The notes beneath the pieces were generated by a model. That model did no database searches. It was not told where the DNA came from and saw only the letters and a list, made by a program, of their open reading frames with translations. Shown one piece after another: positions 745-18,979 of a DNA stretch of 40,562 nucleotides; within the stretch, counting starts at the first letter, position 1, and every line of letters starts with the position of its first letter. The translations under genes were made by a program, and so were the position numbers. The stretch is from a candidate division Zixibacteria bacterium 4484_95. Its GTDB lineage: Bacteria > Zixibacteria > MSB-5A5 > UBA10806 > 4484-95. The stretch covers positions 1 to 40,562 of the forward strand of contig NATP01000001.1 in assembly GCA_002085375.1 (NCBI GenBank), given 5' to 3'.

Positions 745-2412
745 TTGGTACTTCCAAGACCAGATAAAGGTATAAAAAGCCTGATGAGATACCGCCAGAT
801 TGCGACGGTATTGATCAAGTATGGTTTTGGTGAGCTTGTTTACAGGATGAACCTTGTTTCCCCACTGAAACCCGGCGCCAAGAAAACTAAAGCGGTGGCT
901 CAGAGTACTCCAGTTAGAGTTAGGTTAGCTTTGGAGGAACTCGGGCCTACATTTGTCAAGCTTGGGCAGGTTCTTTCCACCCGGCCGTTTTTGATACCAA
1001 TGAATTATATTATCGAGCTTTCGAAACTTCAAGACCAGGTTGAACCTATGCCCTGGTCCCTGGCTGTGGATATTTTGTCTGGTGAACTTGGTAAACCAGT
1101 TGAAGATTGCTTTTCTGAAATAGACCCAGTGCCGATAGCCTCAGCTTCTTTAGCCCAGGTACATAATGCAACACTTATGGATGGTACACCGGTGGTTGTT
1201 AAAATCCAGCGTGAGGGGATAAAAAAAGTGATAGATTCAGATATGAGAATCCTTTACGATATCGCTGACCTCCTTTACAAGAATATTCCGGAAAGCCGTC
1301 ATTATGACCCTAAAGGTATAGTAGAAGAGTTATCCTATACTACTTTTAAGGAACTCAATTTCTTAAATGAAGCCCGCAACATGGAGATATTTGCCGAGAA
1401 TTTCAAAAATGAACCTGTTGTCAAAGTTCCGAAAATCTATTGGGATTACACTACCTTGAAGGTCCTGACAATGGAAAGAATTAAGGGGATAAAGATCTCC
1501 AGGCTCGAGGAGTTGAAGAAAGCAGGTTTTAATACCCAATTAATATGTAAAAACGGCTCCCGGCTAATATTAAAAATGATATTTGAAGATGGATTTTTCC
1601 ATGCCGACCCGCATCCAGGAAATCTTTTTGTATGTGAAGGTGGTGTTATCGCACCGGTTGATTACGGGATGATGGGGGTTTTATCTGATTCCCAGATGGA
1701 TGAGCTTGCCGATTTAGTTGTAACAGCCATGTCAAGAGATGCTGGTGCTATTGTCAGGATCTTGCAGAATTCAGGGATTGTTCCTGATGATGTAAATACA
1801 AGGGCGCTGGAACAGGATATAAACGAGCTGATTGTTAAATACTATCATATGGATCTTTCGCGGATAGAAATGAAAACAGCTCTGGATGAGTTTATTACGC
1901 TGGTTCAGCGTTATAAGATTAGATTACAGGCCGATTTCATGTTGTTGGGAAAAGCCTTGAGCACTTATGAAGAAGTTGGCCGTATGCTTTATCCTCAATT
2001 TAACTTTTTTGCAGAGATAATTCCCTACGTAAGAAAATTGACCGCCCGTAAATATAAACCGGGAAGATTCTATAAAGACATCTTGAAGATATTAAATGAA
2101 TTAAGGTGGTTGTTAGTCGAATCTCCCAGGGAGTGGCGCCAGATAGCCAGTAAATTAAGAAAAGGGGAAATGGCTTTTCAGTTGCAGCACAAAGGCCTTG
2201 AGACTTTAATAAAAGAACTTGACAGCTCGTCCAACCGATTATCGGTATCGCTCTTGGTAGCAGGTTTAATAGTTGGTTCATCAATGATTATGACGGTGGA
2301 TAAAGGGTATATGATATTTGACGTACCCCTGTTGGGTCTTATAGGGTATTTGGTTGCAGGTGTCTTAAGTATTTATTTGGTAGTATCTATATTGAGGTCT
2401 GGCAGGTTATAA
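745..2412 (+). CDS. UbiB/AarF (ABC1/ADCK) atypical kinase-like protein
   Basis: A 555-residue ABC1-family protein. Visible family motifs are the KxGQ motif (KLGQ at 72-75), an Ala-rich nucleotide loop (ASASLAQVH at about 132-140), the VVKIQ lysine near 153, the catalytic-loop HADPHPGN motif from residue 286, and a DYG metal-binding motif near 307. Two hydrophobic helices close the C-terminus (about 505-550), the usual membrane anchor. Known family members are ATPases that support quinone biosynthesis or lipid handling at the membrane; the substrate here is unknown. The start is TTG at 745. It agrees with the usual N-terminal RYRQI...LIKYGFGELV segment but has only a weak ribosome binding site. 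Confidence 0.9.
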   Translation: MVLPRPDKGIKSLMRYRQIATVLIKYGFGELVYRMNLVSPLKPGAKKTKAVAQSTPVRVRLALEELGPTFVKLGQVLSTRPFLIPMNYIIELSKLQDQVEPMPWSLAVDILSGELGKPVEDCFSEIDPVPIASASLAQVHNATLMDGTPVVVKIQREGIKKVIDSDMRILYDIADLLYKNIPESRHYDPKGIVEELSYTTFKELNFLNEARNMEIFAENFKNEPVVKVPKIYWDYTTLKVLTMERIKGIKISRLEELKKAGFNTQLICKNGSRLILKMIFEDGFFHADPHPGNLFVCEGGVIAPVDYGMMGVLSDSQMDELADLVVTAMSRDAGAIVRILQNSGIVPDDVNTRALEQDINELIVKYYHMDLSRIEMKTALDEFITLVQRYKIRLQADFMLLGKALSTYEEVGRMLYPQFNFFAEIIPYVRKLTARKYKPGRFYKDILKILNELRWLLVESPREWRQIASKLRKGEMAFQLQHKGLETLIKELDSSSNRLSVSLLVAGLIVGSSMIMTVDKGYMIFDVPLLGLIGYLVAGVLSIYLVVSILRSGRL

Positions 2413-2564: not shown

Positions 2565-2593
2565 TTGACAGATATGACATAGTAAAGCATATT
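2565..2593 (+). promoter_or_regulatory. Putative sigma70-type promoter upstream of the RlmD-like gene
   Basis: A consensus TTGACA at 2565-2570 is followed after 17 bp by CATATT at 2588-2593 (4 of 6 matches to TATAAT). If real, transcription would begin near 2600. The TTG codon at 2592 would then lie inside the -10 box and could not be the translation start. Confidence 0.4.
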
Positions 2594-2609
2594 GGTTTTT
2601 ATTAGAAAT

Positions 2610-4013
2610 GTGCAACAATTAAGCGTTAAAGCCTGTGAATTGAAAAAGAACGACGTTATCAAACTCCAAGTTACAGATCTGGCATATGGAGGCAGGGGAG
2701 TTGCTGAAGAAGGGGGCAAGGTTGTCTTTGTCGAGAAAGGATTACCAGGCGATATTCTCGATGTGCGCATAAAAAAGGTTAAACCGGATTATTGTGAAGG
2801 TGTAACCGAGAGAATCATTCAACCCTCTCCACATAGATGTGAACCCTTGTGCCAGCATTTCGGCATCTGTGGTGGTTGCCGGTGGCAAAATTACAATTAT
2901 AATATGCAATTGAAATTTAAGGCCGATCAGTTAAAGGAGAGTCTTATGCGCATTGGTGGGCTTTCCAACCCGCCGGTTGAGCCTATCATCGGGGCAAAAA
3001 AGATATATTTTTATCGTAACAAGATGGAGTTCTCATTTAATCGAGATAAAAATAACAATAATTTACTGGGTCTACACCAAACCGGTTTTTTCGATAGGGT
3101 TTTCGACCTCAACAAATGTTATCTGCAATCGGAGTTATCCAACGAAATCGTAAAGTTTGTTAAAGACGAATGCCATAGGTTGCATCTTCCGGCATATCAT
3201 ATCCGTAACCACGATGGCCTGATGCGTTTTTTAGTGATAAGAGAAAGCAAATTTGATAGCGGGGTTTTGGTCAACATCGTCACCGGCAAGGACTATCATG
3301 GATATGAGGACAGTATCGTTGAACTTGGTAAAAACCTCGCAGACAGGTTTAACAGGATAGAAAGTTTGCTCTGGACAATTAACAGCAAAAAGGCCAACAT
3401 TGCCAAATGGGATATGTATCCCGAAAAATTGAAAAATGGTATACTGTATGGACGGGACCATATCTATGAAAAATTGGGGCGGTATCGTTTTCGGGTTTCT
3501 GCAGACAGCTTTTTCCAGACTAACCCATATCAGGCACAGATACTCTATGATACGGTAGTTGATTACGGTCAGCTCTCCGGACTTGATGATGTTTGTGATT
3601 TATATTGCGGGACGGGTACTATATCCGTCTATATTTCTGGATTGGTAAGATCGGTGGTGGGGGTTGAGTCAGTGGCTCAAGCAGTTTTTGATGCACGGAT
3701 TAATGCTGAAGAAAATGGTCTTAACAACGTTGATTTTATTGTGGGGAATGTAGAGGATATAATCTTCGAATTAAGGAAGTTTAATAAGGTTATTCTTGAT
3801 CCGCCGCGAGCAGGGTTACATCCTAAGGCATTAGAAAAAATCGTTGAAATATCACCTGAGATTGTTGTATATGTTTCGTGCAACCCAACGACTTTAGCCC
3901 GTGATATTGCCGGTTTTATTCAAAATGGGTATAACCTTCAAAGAGCAGTGGCGGTTGATATGTTTCCACACACTTATCATATAGAGTCAGTGGTCAAATT
4001 GGTACACAGATAA
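2610..4013 (+). CDS. rlmD: 23S rRNA (uracil-5-)-methyltransferase, RlmD/RumA (TrmA superfamily)
   Basis: An SAM-dependent RNA m5U methyltransferase. A TRAM domain (VTDLAYGGRGVAEEGGKVVF) comes first, then the Fe-S cysteines C-x5-C-x2-C in LCQHFGICGGC with a fourth candidate in LNKC. The SAM-binding loop is DLYCGTGTISVYIS, followed by LDPPRAGLHPKAL. The catalytic cysteine is in YVSCNPTTLARD (about residue 424), and the C-terminal base glutamate is in FPHTYHIESV. Length is normal for the family. The start is uncertain: TTG 2592 overlaps a likely -10 box, so GTG 2610 or TTG 2640 (which begins exactly at the TRAM domain) is preferred. RlmD versus another TrmA paralog cannot be settled without alignment. 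Confidence 0.88.
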   Translation: MQQLSVKACELKKNDVIKLQVTDLAYGGRGVAEEGGKVVFVEKGLPGDILDVRIKKVKPDYCEGVTERIIQPSPHRCEPLCQHFGICGGCRWQNYNYNMQLKFKADQLKESLMRIGGLSNPPVEPIIGAKKIYFYRNKMEFSFNRDKNNNNLLGLHQTGFFDRVFDLNKCYLQSELSNEIVKFVKDECHRLHLPAYHIRNHDGLMRFLVIRESKFDSGVLVNIVTGKDYHGYEDSIVELGKNLADRFNRIESLLWTINSKKANIAKWDMYPEKLKNGILYGRDHIYEKLGRYRFRVSADSFFQTNPYQAQILYDTVVDYGQLSGLDDVCDLYCGTGTISVYISGLVRSVVGVESVAQAVFDARINAEENGLNNVDFIVGNVEDIIFELRKFNKVILDPPRAGLHPKALEKIVEISPEIVVYVSCNPTTLARDIAGFIQNGYNLQRAVAVDMFPHTYHIESVVKLVHR

Positions 4014-4043: not shown

Positions 4044-5689
4044 ATGTTTAAAAAATTATTTATAATTCTGGTGATGGCTAGTTCAGTATATGCTGGTTTG
4101 TCTGAAGATATTAGGAGATTAGGTGATGAATATATTGCTTTAAAAAGCAGGTTCTACCCTGTTTGGGCAACAAATATGGGAATACATGATTATGACTCAT
4201 TACTGACAAACTACAGTGGGGATAACGTTTTTAACTACAGGAATGAAATATTGGAGATAAAGCTGAAATTGCAGGAACTTGATACAACGAGATTGGAAAT
4301 CGATGATTATATTGACTATCAGCTTCTTTTGTCCGATATCGATTATGATAATTTTATACTGGGTAAATATCCATATTATGAACATTCTCCAGCGCTCCAC
4401 GTTGAGGAGGCTTTAAACTCCATATATTACTTGATGATAAATCAATCTATGTCTTTTAAGCAGAAAGCACCATTTATAATGGCCAGATTGAAAGCTATTC
4501 CAACGTTCCTACACCGTGGATTCAGTTATCTTTACCAACCAGTGGATATATTTTATGATACGGCTATAGAAACAGCTACTGAGGGTGAAACCCTTATCGA
4601 TGAAGTAACACAGGAACTTTTAAAAATTTATCCGGAGAGAAGCAAGGCAATTGAGCAGTTGAATGTTGTAGTTAAAAAGAGCTTGAAAAATTATGTGAGA
4701 TATTGTGAAAGTAAGAAAGAATATGCCTCTGGAACATATGCGATTGGTAAGGATAACCTTAATTTTTTATTGAAAAGAGTACATTTCATCGACATCGATT
4801 CTGATTCGTTAAAAAAGATTGGCCGGTATTGGTATAATGTAGCTAACTCTGCAATGGATTCTCTTCAGCGAATCATTGATTCAAAACCAAAGGGGAAAAT
4901 TAAAAAGCATGCTCCTGCTGATTTTTCTAAAGAGGACATTATGGAATATTATCAGTGGGAGATAAACGAGACGGCTGATTTTTTCAAAGAAAAGGATGTC
5001 GTTACTATTCCTGAAGATATCGGTTCCTGCCTTCCGGTTGAGATGCCGCAATTTATGCGGGCAACTCATCGAGGTATTGCCTATCAACCACCGGCACCCT
5101 TTGATATTGACCAGACTGGTTATTTCTATGTCCGCCCGATACCACCGCTGGATTCGATTCTAAAAGATGAATATTACGATTATATTCAGAACCGGGGTTT
5201 TAAAGGTTCGGTCGTTCACGAGGCGTATCCTGGTCATCATCTTCAACTTAGCTTAGCAAACAGACATCCATCCCGCATTCGGCGCCTTCAGCAGGATATG
5301 GTTATGGCTGAGGGGTGGGCGCTATATTGCGAGCAGATGACCGTCGCTGGTATGCTGTGTACGGCGGTATCCGTTTCCGGGCGATAAGAGTAATTGTCGA
5401 TTGTTCGTTGGCTGATGGCACTATGACCCCTGATTCAGCATTGGTATTTATGAATAATATGCTTGGAGAAAACACTGATTATTTTACCGCTGAGATTCGC
5501 CGATACTGCGCTAATCCAACGACAGCTTTATGCTATTTAACAGGGAAGTTGATTATTTTAGATATGTTGAACAAAGCTCGCAGGATTGAAAGCAACTCTT
5601 TTTCTTTAAGAAGGTTTCATGACCGTCTCTTGGCCGAGGGCACAATTTCACCTAATTTAATAGCCTTAAAACTTGGTTATAAAGAATAA
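4044..5689 (+). pseudogene. DUF885-family (M2/M3-like zinc peptidase) protein, disrupted by a frameshift and probable small deletion
   Basis: The gene begins with a strong ribosome site (GGGAGGT) and a signal peptide (KKLFIILVMASSVYA). The first frame carries the DUF885 hallmark HEAYPGHHLQL and then AEGWALYCEQM, but ends at 5387 shortly afterwards. The rest of the domain (RRWYAVYGGIRFRAIRVIVD through AEGTISPNLIALKLGY) is intact in another frame, ending at 5689. The two halves meet at 5333-5341. Family members normally have roughly 8-12 more residues between the EGWALY helix and the R-rich segment, so bases were probably lost as well as the frame. No slippery heptamer is present. A true pseudogene or an assembly error are both possible. 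The intact protein would be a secreted metallopeptidase-like enzyme. Confidence 0.8.
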
Positions 5690-5732: not shown

Positions 5733-6839
5733 ATGAAGATAATTCATACATCCGATATTCATTTAGGTAAAAAGTTTATCGGGCTCAAACTTGCCGGTGA
5801 TGGATTAAGAGCGGGTTTGAAGGCGTCATTATCAAGGATCGTAGATTACACCCTTGAGCAGAAGGCTGATTTGCTCTTAATTGCCGGCAATCTTTTCGAT
5901 ACACTCGAAGTTTCTAAAAATCTTCAAGATTTTGTTGCCAACGAATTGGCTAGGCTAAAGGAAATTCCTGCAATTATCCTTCCCGGACAGCACGATTATA
6001 ATGCCGGTGGCTCTTTCTGGAAAAGTTGGGAGGGCTATCATTCACAAGGCAATATATTTGTTTTCAATGGAGAGAAAACATATTACAAATTCGATAAGTT
6101 AGATTGCACCGTATATGGATTTCCATATTCAACCGAGGGTAAGCGTAAAAAGTACTTTATGGAGCCTAATAAAAAGCAGGAAACCAAATTCCATATAGCA
6201 ATGGTTTGCATAGGGCCTGATGACTTTAACAATCAAGTTCGGGAAGATAATCCTGATAAGCCTCCAATTGAGGGATTCGATTATGTAGCTATGGGAGGTC
6301 AACCTGTATTTATGGATTTATCTTTTCCTGGTTTCAGAGCGGCCTATAGCGGAGCCCCCGAGCAACTTGATTTCAACCAGAAAGAGGCTGGTTGTATAGC
6401 CAGGATCGAGATTGATGAGTCGAATGAAGTCAGGATAGAAAAAGTTCCTTTCGGTAAGTTTATCTGGCGCACTGAGGAGCTGAAGGCGAAAGATGTTTTA
6501 AACAATGATGACCTGATAAGTAAAATTAGGGAGATGGCAGGTCCTGATTCACTTCTGCGGCTCAAATTTTCTGGACTGGCTTTGTTCGAAGCGGAGGTTG
6601 AACCTGAACATGTTCAGAAGTTGATGGAGAAAGAATTTTTATATCTGGATATTGTTGATGAGATGACGGTACTTCCCGAGAATGTTTTCGAGGTTAAAGT
6701 TTCCGAAAAAACGCTTCTTGGGCAGTATATCAAGGTGATGGCGGAACAGCTTAGCCGAGCAGACAACAATATAAAGCCGCATCTTGAAAAATCATTAAAA
6801 ATTGGTTACGCTCTCCTTCAGGGACGGGAGTTGTGGTAA
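5733..6839 (+). CDS. Mre11/SbcD-like metallophosphoesterase protein with degenerate active site
   Basis: The fold is recognisable from the calcineurin-like motif I (SDIHLG, D8 and H10) and the spacing of later motifs. The start is ATG 5733 because AAGG precedes it at proper distance; GTG 5727 is too close. Most metal ligands are replaced: motif II GD is GN (N53), motif III GNHD is GQHD (Q86, H87 kept), motif IV HG is IG (160-161), and motif V GHxH is GGQP (188-191). The AAYSGAPEQLDF segment matches the SbcD capping strand region (PGSPE). Loss of these ligands predicts no Mn-dependent nuclease activity. It overlaps no gene but abuts the Rad50-like ATPase with one base between, so co-translation and a complex are likely. 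Confidence 0.82.
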   Translation: MKIIHTSDIHLGKKFIGLKLAGDGLRAGLKASLSRIVDYTLEQKADLLLIAGNLFDTLEVSKNLQDFVANELARLKEIPAIILPGQHDYNAGGSFWKSWEGYHSQGNIFVFNGEKTYYKFDKLDCTVYGFPYSTEGKRKKYFMEPNKKQETKFHIAMVCIGPDDFNNQVREDNPDKPPIEGFDYVAMGGQPVFMDLSFPGFRAAYSGAPEQLDFNQKEAGCIARIEIDESNEVRIEKVPFGKFIWRTEELKAKDVLNNDDLISKIREMAGPDSLLRLKFSGLALFEAEVEPEHVQKLMEKEFLYLDIVDEMTVLPENVFEVKVSEKTLLGQYIKVMAEQLSRADNNIKPHLEKSLKIGYALLQGRELW

Positions 6840-6840
6840 A

Positions 6841-8946
6841 ATGAACCTTACCAGCCTGGTTATTGAAAATTTCGGAAAATTTAAGAGTTTTGAATGTGAT
6901 TTCACTCCCGGTTTGAATCTTATTAAGGGGGCAAATGAAACCGGGAAGTCGACATTGGTCTCAGCCATAGCCATGGCATTATATGGTGAACCGGGGTTTG
7001 CACAAGAAGATATCGACAAATCAAAGACCTGGGGAACCGATATACCGTTTGTGCTTAAGGCCAGTATTTCTTCCGATGATTTCACTGGAGTTTTAGAAAA
7101 GGATTTTAGTTCGGGTCAGACAAAGCTTATAAACCAGGAACAAAGCATCTCGGAAAATGATAAAGATAGGATTTTAAAGGTTATAACCGGAGCGATTGGG
7201 CTACCCACGGCAGAGCTTTTCCGGGCTACCGCATGTATCGAGCAGGGGGAGATAACTAAAATCGGTGATTCTTTGGAGGCAATAAGAGATAAACTTGAAA
7301 CGCTTGTCACCGGTGGGCATGAGGATTTGGTTGCATCTGAAGTAATTGCCAAAATAGATCGTCGCATAGAAGATATAACCCGCAAAGATAAACTCAGAGC
7401 AGGATTATTACAAAAACTTGAAGAACAGCAGGCGGATATTGATTATAACATTGATAAGTTGGAACGTGAAATTAACAATATAAAATCGTGGAGAAATTCT
7501 CTTGCCCAGATCGAGATCGCTTTTGTTAACAGCAGAGAGGATTATAAAAGCAAAAAACAACAGTTAGAAATTGCCAAAAAAGTTGAAGAAGCACGTTTGG
7601 AAATAGAACGGGTTACCCAACAGAATAAAGATATTTCTAAAAAACTGGAAGAGATAGAAAGCTCTGGCGCGAAAGTCGAGGAACTAAAAAGGGAAATAAA
7701 TCAGGTTGTTGATATATCAACTGGGGACCGCCAGCAGATTGAGGAAACATCGTCTGCATTAAATTATCTCCGACCCAAATTAAGAGACCTGGAGAAAGAT
7801 GTTGAGGAGGCTAATGAGGAGCTTGACAGTTATAAGTTAAGCGGTGGTCTTATTGGCTGGATGATTTTATCAGTGGTGTTATTCGGATTTTCAATTGTCG
7901 ACTATTTGGTGCATTTTACCGGATTCTATTTTCACCTGGGTGGTTTTGGTTTGATATCGTTTATGTTATCGGCAATGGTTCTGTTGAAAGCTAACCAGAA
8001 AAGGGTATTTTTCAAGGAGCAATTGAATATAAAGGGGCAGAAGAAAAAAGAGGTTGAAAAGGAAATAGAGCAACGGTCTGAAGAGTTGAAAAAACTTCTG
8101 GGTAGATACAATATCAGCTCTATTGACCAGATGCATCAGTCTATCTGGAAACGGAATGAACTGGAAAAACTGCTCAAATCGGAAACTGAACGTTACCAAA
8201 GCCTTCTTGATGGTCAGACTGAGGAGCAATTTAAGCAAAAGTTTAAGGACCTTGAGCGAAAAATAAATAAGAATAAAGCCTTCCTTGAGAAGTGTGCAGG
8301 CCAGGTGATTGATACGGCTGAAGTTGAAAGGTTAGAACTTATTGTGGCTCAGCTTGAGGAGCAAAATAATAACCTAAAAAGTGAAATAAAATCATTAAAC
8401 CACCAGATAGATACTGCAGAGGGGGGAGTTGAACTTTTAGCAAGCTATCTTGAGCGCAAGGAAGAAGCTCGAGCAAAAAAAATTAAATTGGTTGAGGAGC
8501 TTTCGGTATTAAGCCTTACTAAAAGATGTATCGAGAAAGCCCGTCAGAATGTGATGATATCCACTCTGGAACTTCTTGAAAAAAGAACCTCTGAAATTTT
8601 GGAGATGATAACCGGCGGTAAATATAAAAAGGTCCGTTTCGACAAATCGACACTGAGATTTGAGGTTTTTGTCGATGATAAAAGGGGTTGGGTCGACCCT
8701 CTTAAGGAACTTTCGCGAGGAACGATAGAACAGATATATTTAACAGCCCGCCTGGCTTTAACTGAAATTTTGTCTGATAAAGCCCAACCACCAATTATCC
8801 TCGATGACCCGTTTAATAATCTTGATGCACAAAGACTTGAAAACACAATGAAGATGCTTAAACAGATGTCGGAGAACCGTCAGATACTTCTTTTAACATC
8901 TGATGATAGCATGGACAGCTGGGCTGATAACATAATCCAACTGTAA
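6841..8946 (+). CDS. Rad50/SbcC/YhaN-like ATPase with central membrane hairpin instead of zinc hook
   Basis: A 701-residue split ABC-ATPase. The N-terminal Walker A is GANETGKST (30-38). A long coiled coil follows to about 330 and again from about 390 to 590. At the C-terminus are a signature-like LSRGTIEQIY (near 623) and Walker B with D-loop (IILDDPFNNLD, near 652). Where SbcC/Rad50 has the CxxC zinc hook, this protein has two hydrophobic segments (residues about 337-382, DNA about 7849-7986). No CxxC occurs anywhere. The ATG at 6841 has a GGGAG site 9 bases upstream and follows the partner's stop by one base. The architecture resembles Bacillus YhaN, which pairs with the Mre11-like YhaO. 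It is likely a membrane-attached SMC-like ATPase; a role in DNA repair or defence is inference. Confidence 0.85.
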   Translation: MNLTSLVIENFGKFKSFECDFTPGLNLIKGANETGKSTLVSAIAMALYGEPGFAQEDIDKSKTWGTDIPFVLKASISSDDFTGVLEKDFSSGQTKLINQEQSISENDKDRILKVITGAIGLPTAELFRATACIEQGEITKIGDSLEAIRDKLETLVTGGHEDLVASEVIAKIDRRIEDITRKDKLRAGLLQKLEEQQADIDYNIDKLEREINNIKSWRNSLAQIEIAFVNSREDYKSKKQQLEIAKKVEEARLEIERVTQQNKDISKKLEEIESSGAKVEELKREINQVVDISTGDRQQIEETSSALNYLRPKLRDLEKDVEEANEELDSYKLSGGLIGWMILSVVLFGFSIVDYLVHFTGFYFHLGGFGLISFMLSAMVLLKANQKRVFFKEQLNIKGQKKKEVEKEIEQRSEELKKLLGRYNISSIDQMHQSIWKRNELEKLLKSETERYQSLLDGQTEEQFKQKFKDLERKINKNKAFLEKCAGQVIDTAEVERLELIVAQLEEQNNNLKSEIKSLNHQIDTAEGGVELLASYLERKEEARAKKIKLVEELSVLSLTKRCIEKARQNVMISTLELLEKRTSEILEMITGGKYKKVRFDKSTLRFEVFVDDKRGWVDPLKELSRGTIEQIYLTARLALTEILSDKAQPPIILDDPFNNLDAQRLENTMKMLKQMSENRQILLLTSDDSMDSWADNIIQL

Positions 8947-9082: not shown

Positions 9083-10317
9083 ATGGACGCTTCCTCCGAA
9101 CCCTCTAACCGGCAGATTCGAAAGGCGATTTATTCGTTGGCATTACCCATAGTCTGGTCGAATTTTCTTCAGCGGGGAGTGGGCATAATTGATGCTATGA
9201 TGGTACCGGTGCCAACCAACCTGATAAACGTTGCCAGTCGGCTGGAACGGGTATAGTTATGGGTATTTGCATATCGATGATGTTAGGTTTAATAGGGTAT
9301 ATATTCAGCTATAGAGTAGCTGTTTTGATGGGGGCAACTCACCAGGTTGCCCTGTTGGCAGAGGATTACCTTCATATAATATTTATCTTTCTAATAGCCC
9401 GGGGTTTAATTTACATTTTAAGCTCGATATTTCAGGGAGCTGGTAACAGCAAAACCCCCCTTAACGTTATAATCTGGGTCAACATAATTCACATAATAAT
9501 AGCCTATCCCTTGATTTACGGGATGTCGATATCGCCTTTGAAATTATACATTCCTTCATGGGGTGTAAAAGGCGCAGCTTTTGCAACCGGCATTACCGAG
9601 GTTGGTGGAGCTATTGTTCTTTTTACGTTAGCCTTAAAAAAAGGACTGGTGCACTTTTCGTTGTGCAGAATCAATTCTATCGATTTTAGAAAGATCGTCC
9701 GCTTGGGAGTGCCTGTGTTTATTGAGCGAATACTTCTTACTTCTATGCAAATGGTTTATGCCAGGATAGTGGTAGGTTTTTCGGTGGCTGCCTATGCTGC
9801 CCATCAGGTTGGTTTCAATATTGAGGCGCTCTCGTTTCTTCCCGGACAGGGTTTCGCCCAGGGAGCTACCGCTCTGGTTGGTCAAAGTATGGGCGCTAAA
9901 AAACCCAGAAGGGCAAAGCGAATGGGTTACCAGACAAGTTTAATCGCTCTTGTTATAATGACGCTTTTTGGCGCTTCATACTTGATAATACCACGTTTCT
10001 GGGTTAACCTCTTTACTACTGATCCAAGCGTTGTTGCTTATGGGATTACGTTTTGTTATATAGTGGCCTTTGTTCAACCACCATTAGCGTTGTCTTTAGT
10101 TTTTGCCGGGGCTTTGAGAGGAGCTGGTGAAACTCGTTTTGTAATGTATACCTCTATATTTGGCTCATGGTTAATAAGACTTCCTTTCGCATATATTTTA
10201 GGTATATATTTAGGTGGGGGTATAGTATGGGTATGGCTGGCAATGCTTGCAGATTGGCTTGTTCGGGTAACTGTGCTTTTCTGGAGATTTAAACGGGGTA
10301 AGACATTCAGGTTTTGA
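9083..10317 (+). pseudogene. MATE-family multidrug/toxin exporter, broken near the N-terminus
   Basis: From ATG 9083 the reading gives a MATE first helix (IRKAIYSLALPIVWSNFLQ, then GVGIIDAMMV) and then drifts into unrelated residues and a stop at 9256. In a second frame, from about 9207 (GANQPDKRCQSAGTG) to 10317, the rest of the transporter is intact, including the central GVPVFIERILLTSMQMVYARIVV and PGQGFAQGATALVGQSMGAKKP segments of the second half. About 45-50 residues expected between the helix-1 'MV' and the 'GAN' loop (helix 2 and part of its loops) are missing. This is therefore a deletion with frame change at about 9199-9210, not a simple slip. Function is almost surely lost unless this is an assembly error. 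Confidence 0.85.
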
Positions 10318-16283: not shown

Positions 16284-17684
16284 TCACTTTACAATCGTGG
16301 ACGGTTTCAACCTGTTTTCCCAGTTATAATCCTTAGGTTCTCTTTTAGCTGTTGAATGCACAAGTCTGTAATTACCATAACCTGTCTCATCGATGAAGAT
16401 GAAATAGACACCCCCTTCTAATTCGTTATAGTTCCACCTTATCCAGGGTTTTTCTTCAAGGGATGATGGATAATTTTCCTCATCGGAAGGAGGGCCATAA
16501 GTAATATAAACCCTGCCCATGTCAGTTTTCCAACCATTACCTTGACCATCCTTTGATTTAAATGTTGAGAAAGCCTCGTTGGCATATCTGAAACGCTGGT
16601 AATGTTCGATCTTGTATTCGTTTATGAGCGTTGAAGGGTTAGTGTCGCGTCTTGCCCAAAACGCTTTGGCGAAATTGTTTTTGCCCTCAATGGATAATTC
16701 ATCGTACTGCTTCAACTCATCACGGGTGCAGATATATAGGATTTGGTTTCTGAAATTTTTTGCCTCTTCTTCGTTAGTGATTTTATCAGCTTCGGGGAAA
16801 TCGGCAAGTTCCCTTTTCTCTCTGGCTATTTCCCATTCCAATTTGCCAGGGCTTACCTCGAATATCTTGCTGGTGAAGGTGCTATCATCACCGGAATAAG
16901 CATTTACCTGAAGATTATATAAACCGACCCTGAAAGCAGATATGTTAATGCCATTTAGAATAATGGCAGGTTTTTCCAAAATAGGCCGGGTTGCAATAGG
17001 TATGTTTTTATAAAGGTTATTGTTGCTGTCATAAATGCGGATATCAAGAGTGTAATTTTCCATGGAACGGTCAAGGTTATATAACTCTGCATAAAAGTAT
17101 ACAATGGTATCATCATGAGAAAAGACATTGCGAGTATTGGGGATGATTTTTTTCCCTGCTTTATCAAAGGGGCCACCATCTGCTTCGGTAACGTTATAGG
17201 CAAGTTCGATAGTGGATATTTCCAATTGGTCCTGCGAATATGCGGGAACTACCATCTTGATTTTTCGTTTTCCCGAGGTATTTGAGTTTACATCGGAAAC
17301 CATGATAGTAAGGTCGTAATTACCTGGTATGAGCGACCCTGTGAAGATGTCGTTAATGAGATAGTTGGATTGATTGGCTTCCGTTAGTGATGATGCATGC
17401 AAAGCAGCCTGCCAGGATTTAGAATCGATGAAATCTCCTGTTTCGGATTTTAGCTCGACATTTATGTCGGCAAGAGCATAATATCCTGTTGTGTCAGGTA
17501 AGAATGAGAATTGATTTCTGAGAAAGCTGTAATAGATCTCGGTGAAAACATATTCGGTGCTATCGGAATATTTAAAACATGAATAATCGGCAGAAATGAA
17601 AAGATTATTAGGTGATTTGGATATATCTGCAAGCCCGATGATTGGAAACAAGATAAGTAAACATAATACTAAAATATCCTTCAT
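16284..17684 (-). CDS. GWxTD domain-containing secreted protein (second of a tandem pair)
   Basis: A 466-residue protein with a signal peptide (ILVLCLLILFPIIGLA). Its C-terminal third holds the GWxTD motif (NGWKTDMGRVYITYGPPSD), preceded by FWARRDTNPSTLINEYK and ending with FIFIDETGYGNYRLVHS. The middle is beta-rich, with repeated strand patterns suggesting Ig-like domains. GWxTD proteins occur in Bacteroidota and related phyla; their function is not established. Its ATG overlaps the upstream paralog's stop by four bases (ATGA-type), so the two are translationally coupled. Confidence 0.85.
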   Translation of the reverse strand: MKDILVLCLLILFPIIGLADISKSPNNLFISADYSCFKYSDSTEYVFTEIYYSFLRNQFSFLPDTTGYYALADINVELKSETGDFIDSKSWQAALHASSLTEANQSNYLINDIFTGSLIPGNYDLTIMVSDVNSNTSGKRKIKMVVPAYSQDQLEISTIELAYNVTEADGGPFDKAGKKIIPNTRNVFSHDDTIVYFYAELYNLDRSMENYTLDIRIYDSNNNLYKNIPIATRPILEKPAIILNGINISAFRVGLYNLQVNAYSGDDSTFTSKIFEVSPGKLEWEIAREKRELADFPEADKITNEEEAKNFRNQILYICTRDELKQYDELSIEGKNNFAKAFWARRDTNPSTLINEYKIEHYQRFRYANEAFSTFKSKDGQGNGWKTDMGRVYITYGPPSDEENYPSSLEEKPWIRWNYNELEGGVYFIFIDETGYGNYRLVHSTAKREPKDYNWENRLKPSTIVK

Positions 17685-18979
17685 GGTTTTCCTTTCCTGA
17701 AATCAATTTGTTTACTTATATCGCCGTCATACGGGTATTGTAACGTATATTCGCCGTAACCTTTTTCATCTATAAACAAAAATCTCTGTCGGGGTTTGTA
17801 ATAATACCAGATTTCATAGGGTCTAACATCTATATCGAATGGATGACGTTCGATGTCATCAGGTTCACCGTAGATAATATGAATCCTGCCCATATCGGTT
17901 TTCCAGCCATCTTTCCCGGGAAGGCTGTAATATTTATTTGAATAAGCGATGCGTCGATAATATTCATCCCTCAATTCATTTTCCTGTGTGCCAGGGCTGG
18001 GATCGCGTGATTTCCAGAATTCGTTCCATAATTGAATTATTTTATCTTTACCCGCATTGCGAAGTTTATCCATTTCCTTTGAATTGGCGATGTATCTTAA
18101 CTGATCAATGGCTATATCAATATCATATTCCACCATTGCCAAGCCAGATAAAGCTATTTTGAAATTACCGCTTGTAGAAACAGTTTTACCCTTCTTAGAA
18201 GATTGATCTTTTATCACTAAATTATAATAACCTGGTTTGAGTTTCTCTAAGCTAAGCTTACCAACGAAACCGTTCAGCTTAGTTATTTTACTGCAAACAG
18301 TATCCGATACCACATAATTATTTTTGTTGTCTAAAACCTCGAAAATAAAATATGTGGTGTCCCCCACCTGCTTGTCGGAGTAATATTCATAATAATACTT
18401 AAGTTCGTTATTGCTATCGCCATAAATTCTGGAGCATGAAGGAATCACTTTCCAGGGACTTTTATCAAAGACATTAGGTTCACCGGCTTCGGATATTTCA
18501 CGGGCGAACTCTATTGATGAAAACATCGGTATTTTTGATTTATAATCAGGTAAAACCAGGTTAGTTTTTAAAGGCAATGATGTGCCAGCATTTGAATCGT
18601 TTAAGGTGATCTCTATTTTATATTTGCCCGGTTTTAAAAAAAACTTGAACGAGTTTATGAGAAAATCTTCGGGATTTGATGCTTTTTCAAAGGTTTCTTT
18701 GTATAAAAATCCTTCAGTTTCGCTTGCTGTAATCTGCTTTCTACCTTTTTTTATAACGGCGTTTACGCTGTAATTGGCGACATATTTACCATTCTTGCGG
18801 ATATGTAATAGTTTTGATGTGTAGATCTGATAATATACTTCCAACTTCACAAGGTCAGTACTATCGGAGGCGAACGAAGCGAAATCCACGTAAAAAGCCG
18901 AATTTTGTGTCCCCTGGAATGACCAGGTTGGAATGGATAAAACTAATATAGTTATTATGCTCATTATCCTGTTTAGCAA
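17681..18979 (-). CDS. GWxTD domain-containing secreted protein (first of a tandem pair)
   Basis: A 432-residue paralog of the next gene with the same plan: a signal peptide (IITILVLSIPTWSFQ), a beta-rich middle, then FWKSRDPSPGTQENELRDEYYRR, the motif DGWKTDMGRIHIIYGEPDD, and a final FLFIDEKGYGEYTL. A TTG start at 18979 is favoured because GGGAG lies six bases upstream; the in-frame ATG at 18964 has only AGGA too close to it. A 177-bp gap separates it from the ABC permease genes upstream on the same strand, so it may have its own promoter. Confidence 0.83.
   Translation of the reverse strand: MLNRIMSIITILVLSIPTWSFQGTQNSAFYVDFASFASDSTDLVKLEVYYQIYTSKLLHIRKNGKYVANYSVNAVIKKGRKQITASETEGFLYKETFEKASNPEDFLINSFKFFLKPGKYKIEITLNDSNAGTSLPLKTNLVLPDYKSKIPMFSSIEFAREISEAGEPNVFDKSPWKVIPSCSRIYGDSNNELKYYYEYYSDKQVGDTTYFIFEVLDNKNNYVVSDTVCSKITKLNGFVGKLSLEKLKPGYYNLVIKDQSSKKGKTVSTSGNFKIALSGLAMVEYDIDIAIDQLRYIANSKEMDKLRNAGKDKIIQLWNEFWKSRDPSPGTQENELRDEYYRRIAYSNKYYSLPGKDGWKTDMGRIHIIYGEPDDIERHPFDIDVRPYEIWYYYKPRQRFLFIDEKGYGEYTLQYPYDGDISKQIDFRKGKP

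Follow-up and report, generated by a model that had tools for sequence, protein, structure and literature searches.

Rad50 and SMC proteins are usually regarded as soluble rings or clamps, which are closed by a hook or a hinge. Within this group, YhaN of Bacillus subtilis was reported as SbcE and linked to double-strand break (DSB) repair and competence (Krishnamurthy et al. 2010, via PMC3896406), and the yhaONM cluster was found to be induced with the SOS regulon (PMC3896406). LmuB of the Lamassu system, a small relative of Rad50, has arms of about 20 nm and does not always carry a zinc hook (PMC10586767). In the papers covered by our literature search, there was no description of a membrane segment in YhaN.

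The window analysed here is the 40,562-nucleotide stretch at the start of contig NATP01000001.1 of candidate division Zixibacteria bacterium 4484_95. It carries an Mre11/YhaO-like gene followed by a Rad50-like ATPase gene (Table), the ATG of the latter lying 1 bp after the stop of the former. The N-terminal AAA_27 domain of the ATPase scores above the curated cut-off, which places the protein in the YhaN/SbcE group; it also matches SMC_N in the profile search and Rad50 heads in PDB. The SbcC model TIGR00618 gave 27.8 bits, below its cut-off of 478.5, which is not decisive since canonical SbcC proteins of the same phylum score below this value too. The ATPase motifs (Walker A, Q-loop, signature, and Walker B) are intact, and the LSxGT-type signature together with the DD Walker B is the type found in YhaN proteins of Listeria, Latilactobacillus, and Monoglobus. 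A Pfam scan revealed no SMC globular hinge in the ATPase, the apex of which consists of about 50 hydrophobic residues. The AlphaFold2 (AF2) model, built from a two-row alignment with low confidence (mean pLDDT 48.5) and used for secondary structure only, has a helical hairpin (338-364 / 368-421) between the long helices 163-333 and 368-525.

Table. Coordinates of the features of the gene pair, its upstream neighbours, and the f8 mini-ORFs (window positions unless a locus is given).
Feature	Location	Strand	Basis
RlmD/RumA-type 23S rRNA methyltransferase, upstream neighbour	2592..4013	+	named from sequence; 24/39 loci compared
DUF885 peptidase, conserved neighbour, split into two frames	4044..5689	+	
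Mre11/SbcD/YhaO-like pseudo-nuclease (predicted), 368 aa	5733..6839	+	Metallophos Pfam 50.9 bits; TIGR00619 sbcd 67.9 bits
Motif I, D8-I-H10, kept	5754..5762	+	alignment
Motif II, metal-ligand Asp to Asn (N53)	5889..5891	+	alignment
Motif III, Asn ligand to Gln (Q86), catalytic His H87 kept	5988..5993	+	alignment
Motif IV, His ligand to Cys (C159)	6207..6209	+	alignment
Motif V, GHxH to GGQP, both His ligands gone (G189, P191)	6297..6305	+	alignment
C-terminal helix-loop-helix, residues 328-362, presumed Rad50-binding tail	6714..6818	+	AF2 helices 328-342, 348-362; tail alignment
YhaN/SbcE-type Rad50-like ATPase, 701 aa	6841..8946	+	AAA_27 40.9 bits vs cut-off 22; Rad50 models 70-90 bits
Walker A GANETGKST, residues 30-38	6928..6954	+	motif comparison
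Q-loop glutamine Q135	7243..7245	+	
Outgoing coiled-coil arm, residues 163-333	7327..7839	+	AF2 helices
Membrane hairpin (predicted), residues 335-383, apex, zinc-hook position	7843..7989	+	hydropathy, AF2, conservation
Returning arm, about residues 384-570	7990..8550	+	AF2 helices
ABC signature LSRGT, residues 624-628	8710..8724	+	
Walker B ILDD (D655, D656) and D-loop NNLD	8794..8829	+	
f8 mini-ORF, ~62 aa	L073 8429-8617		tail homology
f8 mini-ORF, ~62 aa	L072 10331-10516	minus	GTG start after GAGAGGT
f8 mini-ORF, ~62 aa	L089 about 847-1041		tail homology

At the position where Rad50/SbcC proteins carry the zinc hook, the window ATPase has two hydrophobic segments, 335-357 and 364-383, with Kyte-Doolittle means in 19-residue windows of 2.15 (from residue 335) and 1.88 (from 364). 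At about 17 residues, the second segment is short; apart from D354 and the terminal K383, the 50-residue stretch is uncharged, and among 20,000 shuffled versions of the protein only 11 reached both hydropathy values at equally close spacing. CxxC is absent from the whole 701-aa protein, which has four cysteines. The first-pass annotation had described a Rad50-like ATPase that lacks CxxC and has two hydrophobic segments where the zinc hook would be; its coordinates proved exact, and conservation now confirms the description. In our family table of 37 proteins, which includes the window ATPase and the Bacilli YhaN, all 37 reach 1.68 or more in a mid-protein hydrophobic window and none has CxxC, while 34 reach at least 1.3 in a second window, the exceptions being G095 (1.15), G120 (0.99), and Latilactobacillus; a weak or short second segment is seen in these three and in G009. 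The central segment is found in the YhaN proteins of Listeria and Latilactobacillus, both lacking CxxC, as well as in the proteins of Monoglobus, Vescimonas (where one CxxC lies inside the second hydrophobic segment), and Oscillospiraceae. The hairpin also occurs in the long YhaN paralogs (about 900 aa) of G071 and G119; a 1149-aa “YhaN family protein” of Sphingopyxis is without it. The picture is reversed in canonical SbcC of the same phylum, where all 11 control proteins carry CxxC at the centre and lack the hydrophobic segment (mid-protein maximum at or below 0.67 in 10 of them, with no window above 1.2 in the remaining one). This contrast and the conservation in 37/37 proteins, Bacilli YhaN included, indicate that the hairpin is an ancestral trait of the YhaN/SbcE-type ATPases and is not peculiar to the window gene; on the same grounds we rejected a chance origin or a soluble core.

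The same comparison bears on the proposal of the first-pass annotation that the pair is broadly like YhaN/YhaO. Its gene order and motifs uphold this likeness; the hairpin is no departure from YhaN, since the Bacilli proteins share it, a point which the first-pass annotation understated. The YhaO-YhaN (SbcE) loci of Listeria (L034) and Latilactobacillus (L036) have the nuclease-ATPase order of the window, an LSxGT-like signature, a DD Walker B, and the central hydrophobic segment without CxxC, although their YhaN is 907 aa long versus 701 aa in the window. In Latilactobacillus, yhaO-yhaN is followed by an HD-domain (YhaM-like) gene, whereas the window has no yhaM, and downstream yhaM is a trait of Bacilli rather than a universal one. 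Closer in size are the Clostridia pairs (Monoglobus L035, Oscillospiraceae L001), in which an ATPase of 701-705 aa accompanies a metallophosphoesterase in the same order and with the same hairpin, but with all eight nuclease residues. With SbcCD/Mre11-Rad50 the pair has in common a coiled coil ending in ABC head halves and an Mre11-fold partner with a C-terminal helix-loop-helix, while a zinc hook and a live nuclease are replaced in the window by a hairpin, predicted to lie in the membrane, and an apparently dead nuclease. It is the nuclease, not the hairpin, in which the window pair departs from YhaON.

The partner scores below the TIGR00619 cut-off of 77.65 bits. Its AlphaFold2 model (two-row alignment, pLDDT 46), used for secondary structure and fold search only, has in this low-confidence form both the calcineurin-like domain and the helix-loop-helix tail of the SbcD/Mre11 fold, and Foldseek with it gave Mre11 as the best matches, the first being the Mre11:Rad50 complex 3qg5 (E 3.6e-10). 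We scored the nuclease at eight positions, which are the seven metal ligands and the catalytic His. The window partner retains three (D8, H10, and H87) and has lost five, unlike the competent YhaO of Bacilli; partners from Bacillota retain 8/8. This agrees with the earlier notion of a dead nuclease next door to the ATPase. Most partners of the phylum retain 7/8, and in all of these the GNHD of motif III is GTHD (ligand Asn to Thr), while degenerate partners with 1-3 residues are found in f1, f2 (the order of the window), f3, f5, and G119. Judging from the alignment, the nuclease is dead throughout the window's order and independently in three other lineages, which makes at least four deaths in the phylum. 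On the ATPase tree, the nuclease state must have changed at least five times, which we read as four transitions to the degenerate state and one deletion.

The deletion concerns family f8. In three of its genomes (G069, G070, and G071), the gap before the ATPase is too small for a nuclease and holds, directly upstream of the ATPase, a frame of ~62 aa, which matches the C-terminal helix-loop-helix of the partner. Over 38 codons, these tails are 37-58% identical to intact f8 relatives, with synonymous divergence near saturation; between the mini-ORFs, where pN/pS is 0.62-0.78, these 38 codons are near saturation and dN/dS is unusable. An open-frame simulation was used instead: under neutrality, all three frames remained open in at most 0.4% of runs, varying with branch length, which points to a conserved putative microprotein. 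In the tree, G070 is placed apart from G069 and G071 with weak support and may represent a separate deletion event.

Family f8 is also distinguished by its ATPases. In the six examined (L070-L074 and L089), the second acidic residue of Walker B is replaced by Gln (D656 to Q) and the Q-loop Gln by Ser or Ala, while Walker A is kept; in G071, the first Asp of Walker B is also replaced, by Tyr. In ABC/SMC ATPases, the E-to-Q change at the second Walker-B position favours ATP-bound, non-hydrolysing heads, and the f8 proteins are apparently hydrolysis-deficient Rad50-like ATPases. The f8 partners retaining the nuclease have 7/8 active-site residues; conversely, a dead nuclease is combined with essentially intact ATPase motifs in f1, f2, f5, and G119. 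On the evidence of these motifs, the enzyme activities are separable, the nuclease being lost with the ATPase intact, or Walker B being changed with the nuclease at 7/8. Cutting and hydrolysis have thus each been abandoned, and the hairpin has not: it is lost in no lineage surveyed, despite the nuclease and ATPase changes.

The ATPase was found in 37 of the 132 genomes of the phylum by search and in 38 by profile, and a scan of genome contigs turned up a single distant relative, Oscillospiraceae L001. At all 32 loci where both genes were called, the Mre11-like gene precedes the ATPase gene on the same strand and either adjoins or overlaps it, which bears out the two-gene system supposed in the first-pass annotation. 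The genes for RlmD and the DUF885 peptidase recur next to the pair, as do those for a HIT hydrolase and for aconitase-like subunits, both named from sequence; downstream there is a MatE protein in the window, and many relatives have HIT/aconitase-like genes there. In the ATPase tree, the members of each taxonomic family group as a single clade, and these clades together with the constant gene order indicate vertical inheritance of the pair. None of the 16 genomes with a degenerate partner has canonical SbcC, which occurs in 13 of the 18 genomes whose partner is 7/8 and in 3 of 3 with the deletion. In f12, SbcC is missing although the nuclease is 7/8. The pattern, which comes from only four independent lineages, is no more than suggestive of SbcC loss accompanying nuclease death, and we do not take it as proof. 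In the genome of the window, 85% complete, no other SbcD-like match was found.

The parsimonious interpretation, to which we give about an even chance, is that the pair forms a “membrane-tethered DNA clamp”, which derives from the YhaO-YhaN (SbcE) complex and in which the nuclease has been retired. Two ATPase subunits would each reach the inner membrane with a coiled-coil arm (about 170 residues, roughly 25 nm) and be anchored there by the apical hairpin, and the hairpins, lying side by side, may replace the zinc hook in joining the arms. The Mre11-like protein would hold the arm base via its C-terminal helix-loop-helix, as a head-bridging, DNA-binding scaffold. ATP binding would shut the heads on DNA and keep a DNA end or segment near the membrane, probably for break repair or DNA handling there, and ATP hydrolysis would free the DNA. 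Here we infer the insertion of the hairpin into the membrane, the dimer geometry, the DNA clamping, and the cellular role of the pair. As the Gln in the f8 Walker B suggests, at least one family can do without ATP turnover, and release would then not be a universal step. Since the nuclease died repeatedly and the anchor was never lost, the data suggest that the pair acts by keeping DNA at the membrane and not by cutting it. It is plausible, although we put it more tentatively than the clamp itself, that neither chemistry is obligatory in these Mre11-Rad50 descendants and that their conserved core is the anchoring in the membrane, the complex being a structural tether between membrane and DNA rather than a repair enzyme.

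The hairpin itself is a family trait, and what we consider the notable finding is the repeated retirement of enzyme activities around this conserved, predicted membrane anchor. If our reading is true, a widespread branch which swapped the hook for a membrane anchor would represent a direct ATP-gated link between DNA and membrane in bacteria. The phylum offers natural separation-of-function variants (a dead nuclease, a Gln Walker B, and a nuclease cut to the Rad50-binding tail), which make the role of Mre11-Rad50 without cutting directly testable. The 62-aa tails indicate which part of Mre11 is indispensable to the ATPase, and, should the tether reading hold, the complex in three f8 genomes would use an Mre11 reduced to a Rad50-binding microprotein of ~62 aa.

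Several other explanations concern the parts of the pair. The hairpin might be a cytoplasmic, soluble dimerisation hinge, such as a small helical bundle that packs its hydrophobic faces together and makes no membrane contact. It is located precisely at the hook/hinge position, its second segment is short in the window, and one segment is weak in a few homologs; however, the stretch is without the polar face of a soluble bundle, and its sequence varies freely among homologs while hydrophobicity is maintained, as is usual for membrane segments but not for packed hinges. In addition, the loop between the segments has 0-1 K/R and the 3' flank mostly 2-6 K/R across the family, which fits the positive-inside rule, and we regard the soluble hinge as improbable. 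The partner might still act as a nuclease or phosphoesterase through a remodelled metal site, within an ordinary end-processing Mre11-Rad50 complex at the membrane. The DxH of motif I and the His of motif III are kept in the window, members of other families retain 7/8 residues, and partners of this kind are under purifying selection, but five of the eight residues are lost in the window, different ones disappear in each lineage with no common new site, and three relatives dispense with the whole domain; this explanation is rather unlikely. A slow decay of the nuclease gene as a pseudogene would agree with the missing active-site residues and with the deletion of the domain in relatives. Yet the open frame of the gene is full-length, the pattern is repeated in 16 genomes, and omega of the degenerate partners, calculated for the three pairs not fully saturated, is 0.20 (G001/G002), 0.155 (G008/G009), and 0.143 (G114/G115), tracking the ATPases of the same genomes (0.165, 0.160, and 0.142). 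These values demonstrate purifying selection on the pseudo-nucleases and contradict the decaying pseudogene, leaving it a negligible probability. Intact-like pairs have an omega of 0.07-0.10, with one at 0.24, and selection looks somewhat relaxed on both partners, yet purifying selection is clearly present.

The remaining explanations concern the role. The pair might serve membrane or chromosome organisation unrelated to DNA ends and free of nuclease activity, for example nucleoid or fork tethering in segregation. The absence of canonical SbcC from the 16 dead-nuclease genomes speaks for this, meaning that the pair is not simply a scaffold for another SbcCD. Against it, no segregation genes adjoin the pair, and the sole experimental link found for the family is to DSB repair and competence (Krishnamurthy et al. 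2010); we consider such a role unlikely. The ATPase could also be a Lamassu-type anti-phage sensor detecting foreign DNA ends, and the best PADLOC match is indeed the LmuB model, at full length and with 75.9 bits. Like LmuB, the window ATPase is a small Rad50 relative with short arms, and the LmuB hook is not universal (PMC10586767). However, in Lamassu LmuA/LmuC stand alongside, whereas the vertically inherited pair has rlmD, DUF885, and MATE as neighbours, no LmuA or LmuC candidate beside it, and no PADLOC match for the partner; the housekeeping neighbours and the tree, which follows taxonomy, make this sensor quite improbable. The sensing of phage DNA, one of the roles floated in the first-pass annotation, is disfavoured because the housekeeping neighbourhood is conserved and the pair follows the species grouping. 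A “defence island” was likewise ruled out by synteny and the tree.

Some observations were made on the adjacent genes and on other loci. The DUF885 gene of the window is represented by the overlapping frames 4044-5387 and 5315-5689, while relatives have a single frame of 561-566 aa, and the split would reflect either a frameshift or an assembly error. For the MatE-family transporter (9084-10317), the N-terminal part seems to be encoded upstream of 9259 in a different frame, a possible frameshift. Two neighbouring GWxTD-domain proteins are encoded on the minus strand at 16284-18979. In Latilactobacillus L036, a HIT-family gene (6837-7265) near yhaO-yhaN recalls the HIT-like neighbour in many genomes of the phylum. 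A second, long YhaO-YhaN pair (about 420 + 900 aa), in which the nuclease motifs are intact and the hairpin is present, is found in G071 and G119 (L090, L091). An unrelated pair of an 818-aa SbcC-like and a 400-aa SbcD-like protein is located in G115 (L078, 761-4838, minus strand), in a neighbourhood that has a phage-like look.
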